Virus record (IMG/VR): IMGVR_UViG_3300033144_006702
Location: 1 to 32,776 of that record
Length of the DNA: 32,776 nucleotides
Strand: one strand, 5' to 3'
Origin: a virus
A program made the position numbers and the translations under genes. Numbering within the stretch: position 1 is the first letter of the stretch; every line of letters begins with the position of its first letter. The notes beneath the pieces were generated by a model. That model was given only the letters and a program-made list of their open reading frames with translations, had not been told where the DNA came from and did no database searches. Shown one piece after another: positions 976-32,776 of this stretch.

Positions 976-2986
976 ACTAGACGAACGGGCTGAGGGGTCC
1001 TTAAACCCTAACACCCCACAACAAAATGCTGCTGAAGCTTACGAAGCTCGTCAAGAATATGATGAAAATCTTCAAGAACAATTCCAAGAAAATTTAAAAG
1101 ACAAACGTATTGGGGGATTTCAGGCGTTGGGTATGGGCACTGTTGCCGCTGCTACTGATGAAGTGTCGCCAATTTATCTGGGAGCCGTGGGTGCAGCTCA
1201 AGCTGTTGACTGGGCCTATCAAGGAGCGGTTAAAGGAACCAACGTTTTAGCCGATGTATTTTTGAATAAGAATGGAATGGGGCCTCACGCCCAAGATTAT
1301 ACTGATAAACAAATTGAAGATTCCGCCAACTTAGGATTAGCTCAAACCACAGCCAAGTTTTTAGACGGGATAAATAAGCGGGCCAATGATGTCACCAATC
1401 TTAAGCCAGGGATTTTAAATCGCGCCTTATATGATGGAGCCTGGTTAACTGGCGAAGCTGCCACATTTAATTTTATCGGAAAAGGGTTAAAAGCAGAAGA
1501 ACTAGCTAGCCAAATAGCATCCAAAGCTGAGTTCAATGTTCCGTGGGCTAGGCACAAACTGTCTAATCTATTTGGTAAAGTGGCTTCAGAAGAAGTAGCT
1601 AAGAAAACTTCCGAGGCATTTATGAACGCCCTACCCAGAGCGTTGGCATATGGTGCGGGATATACTGCATCCCAAGTGGCCAGCGATATTGTCAGTGGAA
1701 GGAAAGATAAAACGTTGCCCGAATTAGCCCATGTTTTTATGGGCAATACTATGGCTATAGCTGGGTTTGAAATGGCTCCGTGGGGTTTAGGGGTGGCATT
1801 ACCTGCGGCAGTCAAGGGTACGGGGAAAAAAGCTAAAAAATTATGGGATGGTTTTGTTGTTAATTTAATGAATCCTAGTGAAGCGGCGGTTGCGGGTGAG
1901 AAATTCTTTGATACGGCTTTAAAAACCAATGTTAATAATGGCGCTCCATATATCAAATCTGCTGTTGCGGCTAATATAAAAAAGTTAACTCCAGATGTGA
2001 TATCTAAATTACGGTGGCATTTTAATCAATACAGCAAAGAAAATGCGGAAATTACTGAGCGCCAATATAAAATTATTGATGAGCTAGGAAAACTGCCCAA
2101 AGAAGATTTGCACAAAGCCAGTCTCCAAGATTTAAAAGAGGCCGCAGAAGTTTTTAAGGTTTTAAAAGATAATTCTCCTGAAAAATATGAACGTTGGAAT
2201 AAGTTTGATTTAGAAAACCATATCAACGAAGCTTTACCAGACCACGGGGCTTACAAGAGTGTTGGGAAAGTAATTGAAGGGGAAGGTTGGGATTTATCGG
2301 CTACTGAACAAGCTAATTATGCACAAACAGCGCGGGCATTAAGTAGTCCAGTTAAAGAGTTAGAGTATATTAATGAACGTTACTTATCACGCCCGAAGTC
2401 TTTATCCAAGGATCGGTTAAAGAAAATAAAATCCAGAGCGGCAGCCCTAAGGACTTATTTAAAGACCAAAGATAGATTAGCGCCAGAACGTTTGGGTGTT
2501 TCAGAAAAACTGCCGGTTAGATTAGAAGGTGAACGTTATTATAATCACCCAATGGCAGAATTATTACGTGAATTAAATCAGTCCGAAGATAGTTTCCGAA
2601 AAAATTCCAATCAAATAAGTGGATTAGACGCGATTTTAAATGGAGATTGGGATGAAGGTGGGCAGAATTTAGAAGATGCAGTGACTAGTCACATTTTATC
2701 GGAAAATACGCCGCCTAAAGAACCCACATATGATGAACAAATCCGAGCAGCCACTTCTAAAGAAGATTACGAAGCTACTGACACGCCAATTCCTGATGAA
2801 GGTGGGGCGGAACAAGAACTTGAAGCCACTAAGTTGTCTAATTTAAGTGAAGAAACCCAACAAGAATTTAAGGATAAAGTGGATAGCTTGAAGGAACAAG
2901 AAAAAAATCATAAATCATTCACTGCCATATTGGATGACGCGGCAGCGTGTGTGTTAAAGAATATGCACGGAGGCGCAGGTGGCTAA
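965..2986 (+). CDS. Internal virion / ejection protein (673 aa)
   Basis: This is a large late protein immediately downstream of the circular-junction gene, which it overlaps by 11 bases. The N-terminal third has several Ala/Gly-rich, weakly hydrophobic helices (about residues 45-75 and 255-280), as is common in phage proteins that enter the cell envelope during ejection. The C-terminal part is charged and helical, with Glu/Lys-rich stretches suited to coiled coils. I chose ATG 965; a GTG at 956 adds three residues. No strong Shine-Dalgarno is visible for either, which fits coupling to the upstream stop. No enzyme motif is recognisable. The ejection role rests on gene order. Confidence 0.72.
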   Translation: MANELDERAEGSLNPNTPQQNAAEAYEARQEYDENLQEQFQENLKDKRIGGFQALGMGTVAAATDEVSPIYLGAVGAAQAVDWAYQGAVKGTNVLADVFLNKNGMGPHAQDYTDKQIEDSANLGLAQTTAKFLDGINKRANDVTNLKPGILNRALYDGAWLTGEAATFNFIGKGLKAEELASQIASKAEFNVPWARHKLSNLFGKVASEEVAKKTSEAFMNALPRALAYGAGYTASQVASDIVSGRKDKTLPELAHVFMGNTMAIAGFEMAPWGLGVALPAAVKGTGKKAKKLWDGFVVNLMNPSEAAVAGEKFFDTALKTNVNNGAPYIKSAVAANIKKLTPDVISKLRWHFNQYSKENAEITERQYKIIDELGKLPKEDLHKASLQDLKEAAEVFKVLKDNSPEKYERWNKFDLENHINEALPDHGAYKSVGKVIEGEGWDLSATEQANYAQTARALSSPVKELEYINERYLSRPKSLSKDRLKKIKSRAAALRTYLKTKDRLAPERLGVSEKLPVRLEGERYYNHPMAELLRELNQSEDSFRKNSNQISGLDAILNGDWDEGGQNLEDAVTSHILSENTPPKEPTYDEQIRAATSKEDYEATDTPIPDEGGAEQELEATKLSNLSEETQQEFKDKVDSLKEQEKNHKSFTAILDDAAACVLKNMHGGAGG

Positions 2987-5567
2987 TAAACGCAAAACCT
3001 TTAAAACTATCAAACAAAATTTGGCGCCTTGTGTTAAAGGATTTCTTGAGGCGATCACCGATGTGGAGTTAACTGATACCTTTGGAGAGGATGCAACCCG
3101 CGATCAAATTAATAAATGGGGCAAAGCTCAGATTCATTCGATGGCCCAACAAATTTATAACGCTACAATTAGGGGCGAAGATGCGTCCGTGGTCGCGTTC
3201 AGGGTGAGAGAGCAGTTTAAAAAAAGTCATTATGAATGGTTTAAAAAGCACAAAAGTAATACGTTGCGTAGTTATCTTGCTCAAAATGAATTAATCGGGA
3301 AAGCTAAACAATTAAAATATAACATGCGTAGTTTAACGTCAGCCATATTTTCAAATCAATTTCATGGACAATTAGAAAACACCAAAGGCGCTATTCCAAC
3401 TATAGCTAAGGCTATGTCTGATAGATTATGGGGTAAATTTAATGAAGATATGCAGGAAGCTGCTAAAAATCTTAAAATAGAACTGCCTGAGCTGACCACC
3501 TATTTAATTGAACCTGCAAAATTAGCGCAAGTATTTGATGCTTATCGCGCCAAATTAGATAACAAAAGTCCTGAAGCTACGGTAGCTCGGATTATTCGTT
3601 CTTTTAATGACGACACCCTCAAATTATTAAGAAGCCACGGAATAATAATCAAAGATTTAGAGGAATTCTTCTTTACTAGTCAGAGGCATAACATTGAAAA
3701 GATGCAGAATCCCACTCCAGAATTATGGACGGAGATATTAGGCAAGAATAAAGAAGAAATGACGGAAGCAGAACGTTATCAAGCCACCAAAAAAATCTAT
3801 GCTAAATTTACGGAGCCTTTGTTAGATTGGGACAGATCGTTTTTGGATGATAAAAAAGACACGGTAAATGAGCGTTTAGGAATACTAGAACGCACTTACG
3901 ATAACATTATTGCCGATAAAGCCGAGTTGGGGCGCCCTAAATATGCGACTGCTGAAACTTTCGCGTCTTATGTGCAAGGGTTAAAAAGACAAATCCATTT
4001 TAAAGATGGGGAATCTTGGGCTAAGTATAATGAACACATGGGGATTGATAATTTAGGCAATCATTTGAAAAGAGTTGCTACTAATGCCGGAGAAAATGCA
4101 GCGGTATTTTCAGTATTTGGTCCTAAACCCCAGCGTGTATTTAATGCGTTATTGAAAGAATTACAAGCAAATTTACCCAAAACCACTAAAACCAATAAAG
4201 ACCTACAAGACTTTAAAGATTGGTTTAAATATTTTACCGAAAACACTAGCACCGTCCCGGACATGACCACCTCACGCGTCTTGAATATATTGAAAGCCAT
4301 TCCTAATTTACAGATATTGGGAACGTTGGGTTTAAAGTCTTTGCCTGATTCTTGGACTATGTATAGCTATTTAAAAAGTGAAAATTTCGCCAATGCTGGC
4401 CGCGATACGTTAGAAGCATTAGGCCAATTCTTTAACTCCAGTGCGCGGGCTAAAAACGAAGACTTGCTTAAGATGTTTGGTATGGCTCATGAAAGTTTTG
4501 TTAGTGCTTTGGGCGAGGTATCAGCTTCCACCAGCACTAATTTTGGGGCGCGAGGGCAGTGGGTGGCCAAGACGTTAGCTTATGTAGAATCCAAAGGTAA
4601 AATTGGAATTTGGGATGAGATAATGACGTTAGCTGTTACATCGAGCTGGTCCAAGCGGTTGCGTAGTTTAGCGGAAACTCCTCATGACCAATTGCCGGCG
4701 GAGGTAAAAAATTTATTTACTCAATTCAATATCACCCCGGCTGAGTGGGAGGGAGTGCGAAATTATAAAGCCGCTCATCAAGACATGCACGGTCAATCGT
4801 ATTATGCTCCTTGGGAAATTATGAAAATGCCGTTAGCTGAGCTGGGCAAGATATATAAATTACCCGCCACAAGTAAAATAACTTTAGAACGAGCGCGGAA
4901 TAGTTTGGTGTTGAAGCTGAACTCTGCCATGAAGTACCAAGCTAACTATGTAGTTCCTAGAGAAAATGCACCAATGGGATTAGCTTATGCTCGTCATCGT
5001 GAAGCTGCTTATCGTTCTGGAAGTGCTTATTACATTATGTGGGAATTAATGGCTCAATATAAAAACTGGGCATTTAACTTTTCTTCGTTAGCCTTGGGTA
5101 GGATTAAGGACGGCAATGGAACTTTGATGACAAAATTCGCCAGAGGTGCTCATTTGTTAGTAGGGTTGGGAGCAGTTACCACCTTCATTGACTATATGAT
5201 GGGAGTTGCTGGTAATCAGGTATCGAGGTTTTATGACCCGAATAAGCCAGTGCTGTCGATTGGGGAAGAATTGGCTAAGAATACAATTCGTTCAGCAGGT
5301 GCGTTTGGAGTTCTATTGCAATTAGTAGATGGATTTTATGGAGGAGGCAGTAACTTAGCAGCTGCTGGTTCAATCACTAGGTTAGCGCGTAATGTTTATC
5401 ATCTGGGAGTTCCCAAGCGCGGTGATAGTTATTCGGATTCGTTAAGTAATTTATTGGGGAATGGGGCGGCGGTGACGATGCCAACGTATATGGCGTATAA
5501 TTGGTTTATAGCTCCGTTATTAAACGATCATAATCGTAAAAAAGAATTAATTAATATATATAGTTAG
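2979..5567 (+). CDS. Internal virion / ejection protein (862 aa), gp16-like position
   Basis: The longest late gene after the fusion across the ends, starting with GTG at 2979. The start is supported by GGAGG about six bases upstream and overlaps the previous stop by 8 bases. The protein is mostly helical and charged. Near the C-terminus (about residues 725-755) there is a Gly/Ala/Leu-rich hydrophobic segment, then a second weaker one, compatible with membrane insertion during genome delivery. It occupies the place of T7 gene 16, between the other internal proteins and the tail fibre, and is shorter than T7 gp16. No transglycosylase signature was seen at its N-terminus, unlike T7 gp16. Assignment is by position, size and composition. 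Confidence 0.72.
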   Translation: MANKRKTFKTIKQNLAPCVKGFLEAITDVELTDTFGEDATRDQINKWGKAQIHSMAQQIYNATIRGEDASVVAFRVREQFKKSHYEWFKKHKSNTLRSYLAQNELIGKAKQLKYNMRSLTSAIFSNQFHGQLENTKGAIPTIAKAMSDRLWGKFNEDMQEAAKNLKIELPELTTYLIEPAKLAQVFDAYRAKLDNKSPEATVARIIRSFNDDTLKLLRSHGIIIKDLEEFFFTSQRHNIEKMQNPTPELWTEILGKNKEEMTEAERYQATKKIYAKFTEPLLDWDRSFLDDKKDTVNERLGILERTYDNIIADKAELGRPKYATAETFASYVQGLKRQIHFKDGESWAKYNEHMGIDNLGNHLKRVATNAGENAAVFSVFGPKPQRVFNALLKELQANLPKTTKTNKDLQDFKDWFKYFTENTSTVPDMTTSRVLNILKAIPNLQILGTLGLKSLPDSWTMYSYLKSENFANAGRDTLEALGQFFNSSARAKNEDLLKMFGMAHESFVSALGEVSASTSTNFGARGQWVAKTLAYVESKGKIGIWDEIMTLAVTSSWSKRLRSLAETPHDQLPAEVKNLFTQFNITPAEWEGVRNYKAAHQDMHGQSYYAPWEIMKMPLAELGKIYKLPATSKITLERARNSLVLKLNSAMKYQANYVVPRENAPMGLAYARHREAAYRSGSAYYIMWELMAQYKNWAFNFSSLALGRIKDGNGTLMTKFARGAHLLVGLGAVTTFIDYMMGVAGNQVSRFYDPNKPVLSIGEELAKNTIRSAGAFGVLLQLVDGFYGGGSNLAAAGSITRLARNVYHLGVPKRGDSYSDSLSNLLGNGAAVTMPTYMAYNWFIAPLLNDHNRKKELINIYS

Positions 5568-9225: not shown

Positions 9226-10072
9226 TTTTAGCCACCTTCCATGTGCAATGTGTAAATTTATTTTCCTTAATCCCTTCTGCTTCCCCAATGAAGTCAGTAA
9301 TCACGGCATCTAGTCGTTCTTTTTGGGAAAGTAATTTCTTTAAATCGGCTCGTAATGATTTGTCTTTGAGAATAACTTTTTTGATTTTTTCAGTACATTC
9401 TTTATAGTGAGCTTTTTGTATTGGATAGATTTGGTTAGCATCTGGGGCGCTGATTGGGGGAGGGGGAGCATTTTTTAGAACATGGTTATTCCAAAACTTT
9501 TTTACCGCAGAGCGCATCCTAACAGATAAACTGTAGTCGCGGTTAAAATGATATATACGAAAATCATCTACCCCTCCTAACAATACGGCTAAGTACGCAT
9601 AGGTACGATTAGTTACCATCATGTACCAATTTATCTGATAGTAGTATTGGATGGGAATATCATCCATTTTACTTTCGCTACTTTTGCGGGGGGTACCCCA
9701 TGACTTTTGAAGTAATGCATTTAAACCGGCTGTTTTGGCTTCAAAAATCCCAGTATCTCCAATCAAGCCATCCACATGGGCTATCATATAGTCATATTTA
9801 GGGTGTTTAATCATGGGCACGTCCCTGTGCACAGTCATATCGGTCCTTGATTCGAACAAATCGATAACAATTGGCTCCAATCTGTTACCGCATTCCAATT
9901 TAAGCTCTATTTTGGCTAGGGATTGGGCTTGTTTTGAGGGTTTGCCAGTTTTTTCCAGCCATACATCGATGGCGGTTCGCCAGGGATTGACCCCCATAAT
10001 ACATGATACGTCAGTACCTCCAATAGCCCTACGTCGCTCAGCAACTAGTTTAGTTTTGTCTAATTCGTTCAT
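9197..10072 (-). CDS. YqaJ / lambda-type exonuclease (291 aa)
   Basis: A PD-(D/E)XK exonuclease that resects duplex DNA to make single strands for the annealing protein. Visible motifs: RRRAIGGTDVSCIMGVNPW (residues 13-31), the usual N-terminal YqaJ signature; CGNRLEP with Glu66; Asp101 in AHVDG; and the catalytic FEAKTAG with Glu111 and Lys113. A Tyr/Gln helix (YYYQINWYM) follows, as expected. ATG 10072 has AGAGGAT immediately upstream and overlaps the previous gene by 23 bases. The annealing-protein gene begins 29 bases before its stop, so the three genes form one compact operon. This is a functional analogue of lambda Red alpha/beta. Confidence 0.9.
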   Translation of the reverse strand: MNELDKTKLVAERRRAIGGTDVSCIMGVNPWRTAIDVWLEKTGKPSKQAQSLAKIELKLECGNRLEPIVIDLFESRTDMTVHRDVPMIKHPKYDYMIAHVDGLIGDTGIFEAKTAGLNALLQKSWGTPRKSSESKMDDIPIQYYYQINWYMMVTNRTYAYLAVLLGGVDDFRIYHFNRDYSLSVRMRSAVKKFWNNHVLKNAPPPPISAPDANQIYPIQKAHYKECTEKIKKVILKDKSLRADLKKLLSQKERLDAVITDFIGEAEGIKENKFTHCTWKVAKNGKRILRLY

Positions 10073-10554: not shown

Positions 10555-11304
10555 ATGAAGCAAGAATACCAGGTTAAAAATTGTAGTCAAGCTTTTCAAC
10601 TCAAGAACGAGTTAAAAAATTCCCCTTACAAACTTTACTCACCCACTTATCCACATTTGAGGGACTTATATCCACAGATTTCGATAAATGCTTACGACCT
10701 TTACATCGAAATGTTGAAATATCCCACCAAAACCAAAGGTGGCTATTTTACGGTAGCTGAAAATTACTGGCGCAAAACCTGTAGCTTTACTCATCGAGCC
10801 TTTTTAAATGCTCGTGCTGAATTACAAACTCATGAGGCCATTAAAACTAGCCAACATGGATTTAATCACCCCCCTACTTATCGCTTGCGTGCTTGGTTGC
10901 ATGAAGTTAAATCTTACCTCATGATCCCGCTGCCTGTTGTTGACTACTTGGGTGCGCTCTTAGAACATAAGCTCTTAAACAGACCCACCCGCTATCTGTA
11001 TTTTCATTTGTACGGTGTGGCTTTTAAGGCAGACTTCCCCGAAAGTATTTTTTTAGACGTTGCTGACGTTGCCAAATCATTGGGTCATCCCCCCCGTACT
11101 TTGCGAGGATTAACAGCAAAATTAAAAGCCTTAGATTTACTTCAAGTAAAAGCCGCCAAAACTTGCCACTCTCCCTCAGAATTTTTTATTTCAGTTCCTG
11201 CTGTGAAATATCCAGCTCGTGAAAATCGCGCTGAAATCCAAATTGCGACTAATTCTCACCAGAGTTCTGCTATGGCTGCAATCAAAGCGCGGCTTGGAAT
11301 CTAG
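10555..11304 (+). CDS. Putative iteron-type replication initiator (249 aa)
   Basis: I do not recognise a named family with certainty. The protein is about the size of plasmid Rep proteins and appears to have two helix-rich winged-helix-like modules: about residues 40-110 (ISINAYDLYIEML…FTVAENYWRKTC…HRAFLNARAEL) and about 130-210 (…TRYLYFHLYGVAF…VADVAKSLGHPPRTLRGLTAKLKALDLLQV). The strongest support is context: the stop is followed within 30 bases by a DnaA box, three iterons and an AT-rich inverted repeat. A DnaA box also lies inside the 5' end of the gene. Translation start ATG 10555 directly abuts a hairpin carrying the ribosome site. A helix-turn-helix transcription regulator is the main alternative. 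Confidence 0.65.
   Translation: MKQEYQVKNCSQAFQLKNELKNSPYKLYSPTYPHLRDLYPQISINAYDLYIEMLKYPTKTKGGYFTVAENYWRKTCSFTHRAFLNARAELQTHEAIKTSQHGFNHPPTYRLRAWLHEVKSYLMIPLPVVDYLGALLEHKLLNRPTRYLYFHLYGVAFKADFPESIFLDVADVAKSLGHPPRTLRGLTAKLKALDLLQVKAAKTCHSPSEFFISVPAVKYPARENRAEIQIATNSHQSSAMAAIKARLGI
10647..10655 (+). promoter_or_regulatory. DnaA box (exact TTATCCACA) inside initiator gene
   Basis: An exact consensus DnaA box. A degenerate relative (TATATCCACA) follows at about 10668-10677. Being inside the initiator coding sequence, it could assist replication or affect rep transcription. Confidence 0.5.
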
Positions 11305-11334: not shown

Positions 11335-11343
11335 TGTGGATAA
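11335..11343 (-). promoter_or_regulatory. DnaA box next to iterons
   Basis: TGTGGATAA, the exact complement of TTATCCACA, 13 bases before the first iteron. Iteron plasmid origins commonly place a DnaA box next to the iteron array. Confidence 0.75.
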
Positions 11344-11355
11344 GTATCGAGCTAA

Positions 11356-11431
11356 GCGCGGCCAAATCTGCACTACCAACCCCTGCACGCGGCCAAATGT
11401 GCACTACTGCACGCGGCCAAATGTGCACTAC
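11356..11431 (+). repeat. Three iterons (putative Rep-binding direct repeats)
   Basis: Three copies of a 20-bp unit CGCGGCCAAAT-n-TGCACTAC (n = c, g, g) at 11357-11376, 11388-11407 and 11412-11431. Copies 2 and 3 are identical over 23-24 bases; copy 1 differs at one internal base and in its left flank. Start-to-start spacings are 31 and 24 bp, i.e. roughly three and slightly over two helical turns. Downstream of a Rep-like gene, these are best read as initiator-binding iterons. Confidence 0.85.
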
Positions 11432-11462
11432 TTATATAATATAACAAATATTATATATAATA
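11432..11462. other. AT-rich putative DNA unwinding element with perfect inverted repeat
   Basis: Thirty-one bases with a single C and no G directly after the last iteron. It contains a perfect 10-bp inverted repeat (TATATAATAT at 11433-11442, ATATTATATA at 11448-11457) around a 5-base loop. This is the expected melting region of an iteron origin. The whole stretch 11305-11548 has no credible gene. Confidence 0.65.
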
Positions 11463-11521
11463 GAACCTCGACCGCTTTTTTTGAAGCTGTACAAATTATG
11501 AACACCTCTACAAAAATCAGA

Positions 11522-11547
11522 TAAAAAAAAAGGGGCCAAGCCCCTTC
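11522..11547 (-). terminator. Rho-independent terminator of radical SAM operon
   Basis: On the minus strand: AAGGGGC-TTG-GCCCCTT followed by nine T residues, two bases after the radical SAM stop. It insulates the origin from transcription coming from the cargo operon. Confidence 0.92.
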
Positions 11548-11548
11548 A

Positions 11549-12580
11549 CTATTTTTCTGCATGCGGACAAGTCAGCAGCTTCGTATCTTTACCTCCTGAT
11601 GCTTTAACTCTATCCCAGCCACGATAATAAAAATTCACTTTGCCATTATTAATTCTAGTCTCTCCATTCTCAAACAACGCACCAACGACGTTGAAAGTAA
11701 CTGTGCACTTCGCTATTTCACCTGTATTGAGAATGACGTAGGAATTAGGACTAGCTGCATAACAGACATAACAACCCTGATTCTGAGCTTCGCGGGTGGG
11801 TTTCTTTTGTTCTTTAGGGATTACGTATTTCTTTAAATTTTCTACAATAGTTTCTTCTTCTCCCCACCCCAAGACTTTCATATCTTTCACACTCTCGCCG
11901 CCATAGTCTCCAACTGGCTTTAAATCCACGTGAAATCGCTTATCCACTAAGAATGTATCTCTGATGTAGATTAAAAACGCTGCCATATTCTTTATGTTTT
12001 TGGGGTGGATATGAATCCTGAGCTGTATTGAGAACTGATGTGACGACTCTTTGGCTATAAGTAGGTTAGTCATGATTTTCTTATAACTACCTTTGCCACC
12101 GACCCCAATCCGTGTTTTGTTATGGTCTTCTTCAGCACCGTCTAAAGAAACTTGGAATTCATTTAATCCCATCGCACAATATTTGGAGAGCATCTTTTCA
12201 TTTACTGCTGTGTAATTTGTAGTTGCGTGTCCTGTTATTTTTTTTATTCCGAGCGAGTTTGCGTGATTATGAATTTCTTCAATTATCTTGGGTTCAAGTA
12301 ATGGTTCTCCTCCGAACCAGGATATGATTAAGAACTTTAAACCGTCGCGGTGAAGGTAAGTGATTAGATTTTTAATTCCGTTGATATGCGGCCTACTTAA
12401 GGGCTTCATATGGGCAGGTATGTAGTTTGTTTTGGTTGCGAAGTTGTTGCGGTTAACTTCGATGTGGTCTTCATAGCAATATACGCACGATAAATTACAG
12501 TTGCCTGTGGGTAAGATGGTTAGTCTGAAAAATTCGCGTGAAAATGCCTGGACCACCTGTTGTGGTTGAATTGGTAACAT
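11549..12580 (-). CDS. Radical SAM protein with twitch/SPASM-type C-terminus; probable peptide maturase (343 aa)
   Basis: The radical SAM cluster is C28-x3-C32-x2-C35 (CNLSCVYC), followed by the usual FGGEPLL motif (GGEP) that binds the SAM amino group. The C-terminus has C273-x13-G287-x4-C292 and a final C338, matching the twitch pattern CX9-15GX4C-gap-C that holds one auxiliary Fe-S cluster in peptide-modifying enzymes. C270 is an extra cysteine in the same segment. Family members install thioether, C-C or related bonds on ribosomal peptides, or oxidise Cys/Ser in sulfatases. No sulfatase is encoded here, and the two genes just upstream encode small exported proteins with CX4C motifs. ATG 12580 has AAGGAAAAAT upstream; the longer frame to 12658 lacks a site and overlaps the previous gene. 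Confidence 0.85.
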   Translation of the reverse strand: MLPIQPQQVVQAFSREFFRLTILPTGNCNLSCVYCYEDHIEVNRNNFATKTNYIPAHMKPLSRPHINGIKNLITYLHRDGLKFLIISWFGGEPLLEPKIIEEIHNHANSLGIKKITGHATTNYTAVNEKMLSKYCAMGLNEFQVSLDGAEEDHNKTRIGVGGKGSYKKIMTNLLIAKESSHQFSIQLRIHIHPKNIKNMAAFLIYIRDTFLVDKRFHVDLKPVGDYGGESVKDMKVLGWGEEETIVENLKKYVIPKEQKKPTREAQNQGCYVCYAASPNSYVILNTGEIAKCTVTFNVVGALFENGETRINNGKVNFYYRGWDRVKASGGKDTKLLTCPHAEK

Positions 12581-12602
12581 AATTTTTCCTTGGTTGTTAA
12601 GA

Positions 12603-12624
12603 TGAGGGAGCGAGCGCCCCCTCA
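12603..12624 (-). promoter_or_regulatory. Intercistronic hairpin between peptide gene and radical SAM gene
   Basis: The minus-strand RNA forms a 9-bp stem TGAGGGGGC/GCTCCCTCA (one G-U pair) with a 4-base loop. No U-run follows, so it is more likely a 3' stabiliser or attenuating structure than a full terminator. It could raise precursor expression over enzyme. Confidence 0.55.
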
Positions 12625-12633
12625 GTGATTTAA

Positions 12634-12927
12634 TTATACTTGATTGGCATCGAAACAACTGATGTTATTACAACCGGCATTGGCGCTGGGATCGAACAGC
12701 TCATACGCGGTGTCTTGCTGAACGAAACTTGCATCGGTAGGGACGGGGTCACAAATTGTGTTTGAACACCCGCTATTACAACCATCCGCTCCATTATCGA
12801 TGCCACTAATACATGGCAAGCTTACATCTTGTATCTGTCCATGAGTATCGGTACTCATCGCATGTGATGCTGGAATTAGGTTGAATAAAGTTGTTAAAGT
12901 TAATGCTGCTAATTTAGTATTTTTCAT
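12634..12927 (-). CDS. Small exported Cys-rich protein, candidate radical-SAM substrate (97 aa)
   Basis: Begins MKNTK, then a hydrophobic core (residues 6-18) and a probable signal-peptidase site after ASHA-type residue 23. The mature part (~74 aa) is acidic, with six cysteines: C39, C50, C54, C59, C86 and C91. Two related motifs stand out: SGC-SNTI-CDP (54-59) and AGC-NNIS-CFD (86-91), both CX4C with Asn at the second or first inner position and an acidic residue just after. The gene lies 53 bases upstream of the radical SAM gene and has TAGGAAATATT before ATG 12927. Size, cysteine pattern and neighbour suggest a RiPP-type precursor. A disulfide-bonded secreted peptide is the alternative. 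Confidence 0.7.
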   Translation of the reverse strand: MKNTKLAALTLTTLFNLIPASHAMSTDTHGQIQDVSLPCISGIDNGADGCNSGCSNTICDPVPTDASFVQQDTAYELFDPSANAGCNNISCFDANQV

Positions 12928-12942
12928 AATATTTCCTATTTA

Positions 12943-13392
12943 TTAATTAATTGTTACTGGGCATGGTTTAATATCACACAAGACAGCGCCCATGACTGTT
13001 GTGTTATTGAGGTTAATATTTACTCGCCCATTCCCGTTGTTATGGATTAGTAAGTTCCCCCCAATCTGACTGTGATTAAATGTGGAATTGGCTGTAGTGA
13101 GATCTACATCGCTCACAAATACCGTTTCCGTGGCTTCAATCGACCCTACTTGGCGCGCTGAAGTTATTGTGGTGTTTTTAATTGTGGTTGAACCCAGATT
13201 ATCTAAGCGCCCAATCGTTGAATTTAAGACTGTGGCTGGCCCAGTCCATGTTAATGTCATCAAATGTTTATCTTTAATGGCAATTATTCCGGTGCCTTCT
13301 AAGGCATGACTGGGTGTTTGCCATACCGCGGCTGCCACCAGAACTACGGTAGCTGCGTTGTAAAGCGAGCTTAACTTATCAACCATACTCAT
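12943..13392 (-). CDS. Exported beta-repeat protein with C-terminal CX4C (149 aa)
   Basis: A Sec signal peptide is clear: positively charged start, hydrophobic NAATVVLVAAAVW (12-24), and probable cleavage after SHA at residue 30. The mature chain is Thr/Asn/Ile-rich with short recurring strands (STIGRLDNLGS, TTIKNTTITSA, STFNHSQIGGN, VNINLNNTTV), typical of a right-handed beta-helix or bactofilin-like fold. Its only two cysteines, C139 and C144, form a CX4C near the C-terminus, like the motifs of the downstream peptide. ATG 13392 has AGAGGAG about nine bases upstream and overlaps the preceding stop (ATGA). The gap to the next gene is 15 bases. The function is unknown; either a scaffold or a second substrate is possible. 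Confidence 0.72.
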   Translation of the reverse strand: MSMVDKLSSLYNAATVVLVAAAVWQTPSHALEGTGIIAIKDKHLMTLTWTGPATVLNSTIGRLDNLGSTTIKNTTITSARQVGSIEATETVFVSDVDLTTANSTFNHSQIGGNLLIHNNGNGRVNINLNNTTVMGAVLCDIKPCPVTIN

Positions 13393-14266: not shown

Positions 14267-14953
14267 CTAAGTCTCGGCTTCTGTCATTTTGATTTTACGC
14301 ACTAGCTTCATTGCTTCTTGATATACAGCGTCCGTTTGAGACGCGATATGGTCTGAAGTGAGCGATAGGTAATATAACTGCATGGTAGGATGAGTAAGAG
14401 CATGACGATAAATATAATCTCTGGTTGTATTGTTAAGTTTTGCGGTTACGGTGACTGATTCACCATTCCGCAATGCCTTGATACAATTCAATGCCAAAAG
14501 ACAGTTCTTCGCCGGGCGCCCTTGTCTCGTTTGATTGACCTTACCTACACTCGCTGCCAATTTTTCTAATGAGTAAGTATTCAAAAATTCGCCGATGTAA
14601 TTTATCTGCGTGTCTACTGGACACTCTGTTAAGGCAGTATTTAAGCCTTCTTTAACACTTCTTAAGTGAGTGTTATGGTCTCGAAAAAACATTAATCCAC
14701 GTTTGATTTCCTTGATGCTAGTGAACAGTCTACTGAGATCGTAAATGTAGATTGTATGTTTCATTTCCTCAACTTTCTCCAGAAGATTCAAAGATTGCAA
14801 TCTGACACTTATTGCCTGTCTGATCAACCGGCGTTTGTCGCTGTGGATAACTTCAACTTCATCACCAACCTCTGATTGAATAGCTCTGAGTTGATTGTCC
14901 ACATCCCATGACGCCATTGGTATTGAGGACTGTCTGATTAATGCAATGTTCAT
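14267..14953 (-). CDS. Serine-recombinase/resolvase-like protein, possibly degenerate (228 aa)
   Basis: The N-terminus reads ALIRQSS followed by DNQLRAI (residues 4-25), recalling the resolvase pattern with Arg7 and catalytic Ser9 or Ser10. A second block, IYDLSRLFTS…LMFFRDHNTHLRSVKEGLNT (69-106), matches the resolvase helix with Arg75 but has Thr where the second conserved Arg of 'DRLGR' is expected. The C-terminus has GRP (145-147) and a helix-turn-helix (about 153-184, ending YIYRHAL), as in DNA invertases and resolvases. It may resolve multimers of the plasmid form or act only as a DNA-binding regulator. ATG 14953 follows CAAGGAGAGACA. Confidence 0.65.
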   Translation of the reverse strand: MNIALIRQSSIPMASWDVDNQLRAIQSEVGDEVEVIHSDKRRLIRQAISVRLQSLNLLEKVEEMKHTIYIYDLSRLFTSIKEIKRGLMFFRDHNTHLRSVKEGLNTALTECPVDTQINYIGEFLNTYSLEKLAASVGKVNQTRQGRPAKNCLLALNCIKALRNGESVTVTAKLNNTTRDYIYRHALTHPTMQLYYLSLTSDHIASQTDAVYQEAMKLVRKIKMTEAET

Positions 14954-31213: not shown

Positions 31214-32776
31214 ATGGTAACTGCAAAATATACAGAAAGCACCCCAATCCAACCAGTTGATTTCACAGCGGCAGCCGGGGCCGGTGCTGAAGGATGGGCC
31301 AAGTTATTTGCAACTACTGAGAACTTAGCATATCAAAAAGGCCAACAGTTAGCGGACGCTCAAGCTGCCCAAAATGGGGTGGAGAATGTTGCTAAGTATG
31401 GATTAGGGGCACCTTATCCAGATAGCTCCTCAGAAGCAGCTCAACATTATAAGCAAGCTGTAGACCGTAGCCAGGCTACGTTATTGCAAAATCAAATCAA
31501 CAGCAAAGGTAATGAGTTATTCCAAGAAACCGCTGCCCAAGGATTTAATCCACAAACTTCTGAGGAATTTAATAATAAATGGACTGCATGGACCAAAGCT
31601 ACATTAGATGAATTGCCCCAACATCAAAAGGCTATGGGTGTGCAATTAATGGGAGCTGTGGGCAATCATTATGGGATGCAGGTCGCTACTCAAGTTAGCA
31701 AACAGTTATTGCAAGATAAAAAATTACAATCAGATTTAGCTATTCAAGAACAAGGCCAACATGCGGTTAATTATTTTTACCAAGGTGGCCAATTTACCAA
31801 TCCGAAAATGTTATTAGGCGATCAAAGTTTATTAAGTTCCTTAAAAGATAATATCTTAAATGCCCCCGGAACGGCCCTGCAACGTGAAGCTAAACTGAGA
31901 AATTATCAAGAAAATATTTTACAAGCCAATGTTACAGGGAGTTTGCAATGGTTACAGCAGGCGCAGGTCAAAGCTCTTCAGGAAACTAATCCTGAAAAAC
32001 GCGCAGAAAAGCTAGCGATAGTGAAAAAAGAATACAATCAAATCCAATCTAATCCTGAGAAATGGGTAAAAGGGAAAATTGAACAAAGCGATTTTTTTGA
32101 AGGGGTTAATCCCCAGGAGGGCCTAACTGCTTTAAACACCTTTAAAAATAATATGACGCTAGGGTTAGCCCAACAATCCCAACAAGCCACGGATACTTAT
32201 GATAAGTTAACTCTTCAAATTAAGAACGGCAATATCCCTACTCAAGCTGAGTTAAACGAATATGTAAACCAGGCCCCTTATGATAAAAAAGGAGTTGAGC
32301 GCGTAAAATTATTAAATCAGGGTATTGCTACTGTTAAAGATATATTTAGTGAAATTGCCACACCTGGCGCGCTGGATGCTATGCTCACCAAAGCTAATAC
32401 AGGCACCTATGGTGATTCTAAACATACGAATGCCATAGCTAAACCATTGCTGCCAGCCGCTTACGGGGCCTTTATATATAACCGCTCTTCATTAACTAAA
32501 CAAACCCAAGCCAAAGCGTACGCTCAGTTAAGAGCCTCTCCCGAACAGGTTCAGTTAGTAGAGGGATTTGCGGGCAGTCCTGACATGTTAACTAAAATTG
32601 CGAGCGGGCAAAATCCCCTAAATCTAGCCCAAGATAAAATTGCTAATCAGTATTATTCTGGCTCGAAAAACTTACAACGCTTAAGTGGAATCCCTGAGCC
32701 TTTAGTAAGCACGTATACAAATGAGCAATATAAAAGTTTGAATACCTATTTACAGAGTTTAACTCCCTCCGCAAGG
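31214..32776 (+). CDS. Internal virion protein, N-terminal part (continues at base 1)
   Basis: The gene begins at ATG 31214, two bases after the gp14-like stop (TAAATATGG), with AATGGTGAATAAAT upstream, a weak ribosome site that suggests coupling. It stays open to the end of the window and resumes at base 1, giving about 807 aa in total. It is hydrophilic and Gln/Ala/Asn-rich, with long helical stretches. Position corresponds to T7 gp15. The window's last 114 bases duplicate its first 114 and must be counted once. Confidence 0.85.
   Translation, partial: MVTAKYTESTPIQPVDFTAAAGAGAEGWAKLFATTENLAYQKGQQLADAQAAQNGVENVAKYGLGAPYPDSSSEAAQHYKQAVDRSQATLLQNQINSKGNELFQETAAQGFNPQTSEEFNNKWTAWTKATLDELPQHQKAMGVQLMGAVGNHYGMQVATQVSKQLLQDKKLQSDLAIQEQGQHAVNYFYQGGQFTNPKMLLGDQSLLSSLKDNILNAPGTALQREAKLRNYQENILQANVTGSLQWLQQAQVKALQETNPEKRAEKLAIVKKEYNQIQSNPEKWVKGKIEQSDFFEGVNPQEGLTALNTFKNNMTLGLAQQSQQATDTYDKLTLQIKNGNIPTQAELNEYVNQAPYDKKGVERVKLLNQGIATVKDIFSEIATPGALDAMLTKANTGTYGDSKHTNAIAKPLLPAAYGAFIYNRSSLTKQTQAKAYAQLRASPEQVQLVEGFAGSPDMLTKIASGQNPLNLAQDKIANQYYSGSKNLQRLSGIPEPLVSTYTNEQYKSLNTYLQSLTPSAR
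32663..32776. repeat. Right copy of 114-bp terminal direct repeat
   Basis: This copy is identical to 1-114 and shows that the sequence closes on itself; see the left copy. Confidence 0.95.

Follow-up and report, generated by a model that had tools for sequence, protein, structure and literature searches.

We analysed a stretch of viral DNA of 32,776 nucleotides (the window; virus record IMGVR_UViG_3300033144_006702), whose minus strand carries three tandem genes, two for proteins with predicted export signals (149 and 97 aa) and one for a radical SAM enzyme of 343 aa, followed by an intrinsic terminator (Table 1). The original prediction had described two Sec-signal proteins directly upstream of a radical SAM gene, a set of enzyme motifs and a closing terminator, and all of these are present, the motifs reading C28-X3-C32-X2-C35, GGEP at residues 90–93, and C273-X13-G287-X4-C292 with a later C338. 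The three-gene cassette holds no dedicated protease, immunity gene or transporter. A GC-rich stem-loop lies in the gap between the genes of the 97-aa protein and the enzyme, both here and in three related phages, where a T-run follows it (stem-loop in 4/4 phages), as expected if the 97-aa protein is a precursor needed in excess of the enzyme.

Because its first 114 bases recur exactly at its end as a direct terminal repeat (1–114 and 32663–32776), the window is probably a complete genome, with 32,662 unique bases. Its particle genes are T7-like and include an adaptor/portal, a major head protein, a tail tubular protein and a gp14-like internal protein. A T7-type virion had been predicted for this phage, which fits the head–tail adaptor, tail tubular and gp14-like genes, but replication does not look T7-like: there is no match to DNA polymerase A in the window, which has a plasmid-like origin instead. 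The window also gave no match to a tyrosine integrase and contains no Rfam family or tRNA. A search for hosts with the portal protein across 369 genomes of Chromobacterium's class returned distant matches (30–31%) with internal stops in one genome only.

Table 1. Features of the cassette and its surroundings (positions in the window)
Feature	Position	Strand	Basis or remark
Exported beta-solenoid protein, 149 aa (gene 1)	12943–13392 (ATG at 13392, stop at 12943)	-	ORF, AF2; homologues at equivalent position in three related phages
Sec-type signal peptide of the 149-aa protein, residues 1–30 (...TPSHA/LE)	13303–13392	-	Sequence, unstructured N-terminus in model, rule-based scan
Predicted precursor peptide, 97 aa, Sec signal, six Cys (gene 2)	12634–12927 (ATG at 12927, stop at 12634)	-	Precursor-equivalent position; CX3C invariant
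Sec signal peptide of the 97-aa precursor, residues 1–23 (...ASHA/M)	12859–12927	-	Rule-based scan
GC-rich stem-loop, attenuator-like, between precursor and enzyme genes	12603–12624	-	Window fold -16.8 kcal/mol; equivalents in 3 related phages
Radical SAM enzyme, 343 aa, 3-Cys twitch domain, no RRE (gene 3)	11549–12580 (ATG at 12580, stop at 11549)	-	Pfam/NCBIfam, invariant Cys, AF2
Intrinsic terminator GAAGGGGCTTGGCCCCTTTTTTTTT closing the cassette	11529–11547	-	Terminator scan
Plasmid-like origin adjoining the cassette: DnaA box 11335, three 24-bp iterons 11352–11430, AT-rich tract 11433–11466	11335–11466	none	
Rep-like protein, 249 aa, beside the origin	10555–11304	+	ORF; 72% identity in G002, 25% in G001
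Resolvase-like serine recombinase	14267–14953	-	PF00239 at cut-off; part of the cassette's leftward gene block

The radical SAM enzyme and its chromosomal relatives

The enzyme matches the Pfam Radical_SAM family (E=6e-15), and across about 100 homologues C28, C32, C35, C273, C292, C338 and the GGEP motif are invariant, gaps in fragments aside. The CX3CX2C core is thus accompanied by C-terminal ligands for one auxiliary cluster (C273, C292 and C338), the arrangement of a twitch domain, and these residues are consistent with a working radical SAM enzyme that carries one putative auxiliary cluster with three Cys ligands. The enzyme scores below the cut-off of the NCBIfam twitch subfamily NF033640 (50 vs 170 bits). 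In an AlphaFold (AF2) model (pLDDT 85, pTM 0.86) the chain reaches the barrel at residue 17 after a single short helix, and the nearest solved folds, CteB, ChlB, anSME and SkfB, all belong to enzymes that modify peptides or proteins.

In the NCBIfam search the enzyme reached no equivalog cut-off, and its best matches, TIGR04463, CefB (NF038107) and PapB, are all RiPP maturases of the radical SAM/SPASM type. It resembles them in the radical SAM core, in the CX13GX4C start of the C-terminal domain and, among its relatives, in an upstream Cys-containing precursor, but it scores only 94 vs 525, 95 vs 600 and 79 vs 340 bits against them, respectively, and has a single later Cys rather than CX2CX5CX3C...C. 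The N-terminal region in which CefB and TIGR04463 would carry a recognition domain (RRE) is missing, since the matches start near profile position 76–79. CteB, a thioether-forming maturase, has an RRE, a full SPASM domain and two auxiliary clusters. Among solved structures CteB (PDB 5WGG/5WHY) is the best match in both fold and sequence, and the window enzyme differs from it in having neither the RRE nor a full SPASM domain. The enzyme is a member of a widespread RiPP-maturase family.

Several closer assignments were tried and rejected. A SPASM sactipeptide or ranthipeptide maturase, with a seven-Cys SPASM domain and an N-terminal RRE, is ruled out by the one late Cys, by a core motif starting as early as residue 28 and by a model that has no N-terminal domain; QhpD (TIGR03906; 56.6 vs 453 bits) and prokaryotic viperin (NF038283; 42 vs 180 bits) are ruled out on score. 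The comparisons with QhpD-type, sactipeptide and ranthipeptide enzymes made in the original prediction do not hold, as the enzyme falls into none of these families by any curated cut-off.

We compared 61 chromosomal or plasmid relatives of the enzyme's short type. In 34 of these the position directly upstream, on the same strand, is taken by a small ORF that combines a leader-like D..G motif with a Cys tail, against 5, 5 and 1 in three control regions; the same rule finds no precursor in the other 27. Many of the relatives' precursors have a leader that ends in GG, and a C39-peptidase ABC transporter occurs within the fetched flanks of 24 loci, plus that of L013. At L013 an exported beta-strand-rich protein, a GG-leader precursor, the radical SAM enzyme and a C39 transporter stand in a row; this exported protein we call analogous only, because we could not demonstrate that it is homologous to the 149-aa phage protein (E=0.013, hhalign probability 4%).

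GG-leader precursors and C39 transporters are typical of bacteriocin clusters, and phage-borne biosynthetic gene clusters mostly encode bacteriocins (PMC7616364), which raises the possibility that the phage peptide is a bacteriocin directed against sensitive neighbours, with the beta-solenoid protein as producer immunity or delivery factor and the cassette serving to keep a plasmid-like prophage in the population. The diversity of the phage alleles (see below) would fit turnover of toxin and immunity as well. A Sec signal, in contrast, delivers its cargo to the periplasm, no outer-membrane exporter is encoded, and no known immunity family is present; we regard a bacteriocin as possible but doubtful.

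Enzymes of this family also occur on other mobile elements. On one element with an integrase and a DNA primase (L095, IMGVR 2548876714_000006), possibly a phage satellite, a precursor-like ORF lies just ahead of a related enzyme gene; this is a separate mobile-element acquisition of the enzyme's RiPP family. Phage L088 (IMGVR 2908321769_000003), which has genes for a portal and a DnaB-type helicase, also carries a related enzyme gene, with no precursor recognised upstream.

The two Sec-signal proteins

The 97-aa protein begins with a Lys-bearing start and a hydrophobic core that end in ASHA/M. The signal-peptide rule that recognises it holds for 5/5 phage precursors and for the precursors of two relatives (L004 and L031), against a background of 2.8% of small ORFs. 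The six Cys of the 97-aa protein (residues 39, 50, 54, 59, 86 and 91) and the stem-loop ahead of the enzyme gene had not been part of the original prediction. All five phage precursors share an invariant CX3C (C50 and C54 in the window), and those of the related phages end in CGIGC, CGINCYCDA or CGVNCSC, each preceded by a Sec signal. In a set of 10,722 small ORFs that still contained duplicate loci, CG[IV]xC in the last 25 residues was confined to the precursors of G001, G002 and G003, to the ORFs found upstream in L019 and L063, and to one unrelated ORF, the motif having been picked after the phage sequences had been seen. The window's own precursor core does not contain CG[IV]xC and has CNSGC and CNNISC instead.

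Two further observations concern the precursors. The Planctomycetota and Chromobacterium precursors (L063 5699–5986; L019 5754–5927) have the same CG[IV]xC core as those of the related phages, and in the enzyme tree no bacterial sequence lies closer to the phage clade than that of L019 (moderate support, 88/76). In L096, at 9454–9929, two tandem precursor copies with differing signal regions and the same CGVNCSC end stand ahead of the enzyme gene.

A small precursor gene directly next to its modifying enzyme is the hallmark of a RiPP cluster, and it is found in four phages, the window counted, and in 34/61 relatives. An enzyme always paired with some unrelated substrate would have spoken against the original prediction; this check did not refute it, and the RiPP reading of the 97-aa protein and the enzyme stands as well supported. 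The original prediction had taken both small proteins as substrates. For the 97-aa protein this survives as a predicted precursor, given the homologous loci, the core motif shared by the related phages and the nearest chromosomal precursor, and the stem-loop, but not for the 149-aa protein, a predicted beta-solenoid that nothing shows to be modified.

Sec-signal RiPP precursors have been described as highly unusual, and use of Sec in a natural host has been shown experimentally only for bufferins, which are made by MNIO enzymes (PMC12452194). Like bufferins and oxazolins, the window precursor has a Sec signal peptide where an ordinary leader would stand, and a Cys-rich mature part, but those peptides are modified by an MNIO enzyme and the window cassette uses a radical SAM enzyme. 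A search for MNIO (PF05114) that was positive in two control genomes gave no match in the record, and the cassette is thus not a bufferin locus. The existence of Sec-exported, Cys-rich RiPPs such as bufferins (PMC12452194), together with the CX3C in all phage precursors, might nevertheless suggest a metal-binding or stress-protective periplasmic peptide that aids the lysogen, as bufferins do with copper, and hence lysogenic conversion without conflict. We consider this unlikely, as no MNIO enzyme is in the record, and a housekeeping chelator would not be expected to diverge strongly or to swap alleles.

The 149-aa protein was modelled with AF2 from a four-sequence alignment as a beta-solenoid, with pLDDT mostly about 85–95 from residue 40 on. 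Fold searches with this model against the PDB and viral structures returned generic matches only, none at E<=0.001, and neither small cassette protein has a family match. A C-X3/4-C pair near its C-terminus is kept in all four phages and its gene always comes first, both of which would suit an enzyme that acts on the beta-solenoid protein, or on both exported proteins, to yield a modified surface protein. Most chromosomal relatives, however, have a small precursor, no relative of the beta-solenoid protein was detected among them (L013 only, weakly), and it is the 97-aa gene that occupies the precursor position; we hold modification of the 149-aa protein to be unlikely, and the model and the chromosomal loci suggest that it is more likely a partner than a substrate.

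One slot, probable allele exchange and a plasmid-like origin

Viral contigs searched with the window enzyme as a single sequence returned nothing, relatives being found only when an alignment was the query; phage and plasmid records gave distant enzymes only. The cassette occupies an equivalent slot in three further viral contigs: G002 (L089/L180/L181), G001 (L169/L178/L179) and G003 (L096/L174), the last with an enzyme cut by the contig end. All four phages are IMG/VR records, and a further contig, L168, stops just short of the slot. The original prediction had left to be checked whether the three genes co-occur in other phages, and they do so in 4/4 sampled phages whose contigs span the slot, the window counted. 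Adjacency by chance, or decayed cargo, might be suspected from the small proteins' lack of a family match; yet four phages keep the three genes in one order and one slot, with ORFs and catalytic residues intact although identity is about 40%, which largely refutes this explanation and leaves it barely credible. We conclude that the cassette is real, that the phage encodes it and that it specifies a RiPP predicted to be exported by Sec, with a putative chemistry and role.

The cassette similarity does not follow that of the rest of the genome. By backbone the phages form two pairs, with the window and G002 sharing 94% identity in the portal and 90% in the tail tube, G001 and G003 sharing 88% and 89%, and values of 63–72% across pairs. 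The N-terminal part of the enzyme, in contrast, is 53% identical between the window and G001 and 69% between G002 and G003, with 40–43% for the remaining pairs, and the beta-solenoid protein follows the same pattern (43%, 45% and 27–35% for the others). The closest phage (portal 94%) thus has a 40%-identical enzyme, and the nearest enzyme is found in a distant phage (portal 71%). In a tree of full-length enzymes the window groups with G001 and not with G002 (100/97), and the phage-slot enzymes are one clade (100/97). Because cassette similarity does not track the backbone, the alleles appear to have been exchanged, and the simplest reading of these sequences is one old acquisition followed by divergence and allele exchange. 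A fixed position with swapped, diverged alleles is what a locus that determines specificity in a conflict would be expected to show.

Elsewhere in the genome a second locus has diverged strongly: an 862-aa virion protein (2979–5567) is only 29% identical to its G002 counterpart while the nearby terminase is 94% identical. This protein is perhaps receptor-facing or ejected.

Beside the cassette lies an origin that combines a DnaA box, iterons and an AT-rich tract with a Rep-like gene, and a resolvase-like gene is present in the window, with no partition gene seen. The 249-aa Rep-like protein has no Pfam, plasmid or phage match, Rep3_N and the curated Rep families included, and for that reason its assignment as Rep is one that we infer. 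The origin of G002 has the layout and spacing of the window's, with iterons of another sequence and a tandem pair of rep-like genes; that of G001 has a similar layout, again with different iterons. The Rep-like gene, the DnaA box and the 24-bp iterons that adjoin the cassette suggest that the phage persists as a plasmid-like prophage.

Proposed mechanism and use of the cassette

Taking these observations together, the explanation that we find probable is a phage-encoded RiPP cassette that yields a modified and Sec-exported peptide with a beta-solenoid partner for use in envelope conflict, with the reaction, export, plasmid-like state and role all predicted. The 97-aa protein would be the precursor, with its Sec signal region doubling as the leader, and the radical SAM/twitch enzyme would modify its Cys-containing C-terminal part in the cytoplasm, a cross-link, for instance a thioether, being the most likely modification. 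Sec would then export the modified peptide and signal peptidase cut it, after which the mature peptide may act, alongside the co-exported beta-solenoid protein, in the periplasm or extracellularly. Expression would probably occur during plasmid-like prophage persistence.

Allele swapping and the plasmid-like origin lead us to favour a role in envelope conflict or lysogenic conversion. The most likely use would be envelope conflict in which competing phages or cells are excluded, with different alleles conferring different specificities; we favour exclusion with modest confidence, the one observation that points to it being the allele swapping, which other selection could also cause. A more specific picture, in which a lineage of small, plasmid-persisting podoviruses uses an allele-swapping, radical-SAM-modified, Sec-exported peptide and its beta-solenoid partner to decide phage–phage exclusion, such that a RiPP serves as an immunity or specificity determinant, is tentative and we think it rather improbable.

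RiPPs on phages are already known (PMC7616364), and phage-borne bacteriocin clusters (Dragos et al. 2021, as cited in PMC7616364) resemble the window cassette in being phage-carried biosynthetic clusters, which according to that account can transfer production to new strains. The window phage differs from these in its T7-like virion, its plasmid-like origin and a Sec-exported peptide that comes with no transporter or recognisable immunity gene. The open-access literature offered no account of a phage cassette that joins a radical SAM enzyme to Sec export, an absence that is weak evidence. If the proposed mechanism is true, the window cassette would be a radical-SAM, phage-carried counterpart of the Sec-exported bufferins. 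With three genes and no transporter, it is small enough for direct expression and testing, and the contrast between a well-conserved backbone and a peptide locus that is swapped and has diverged strongly gives a concrete, testable proposal for how phages may use such peptides.
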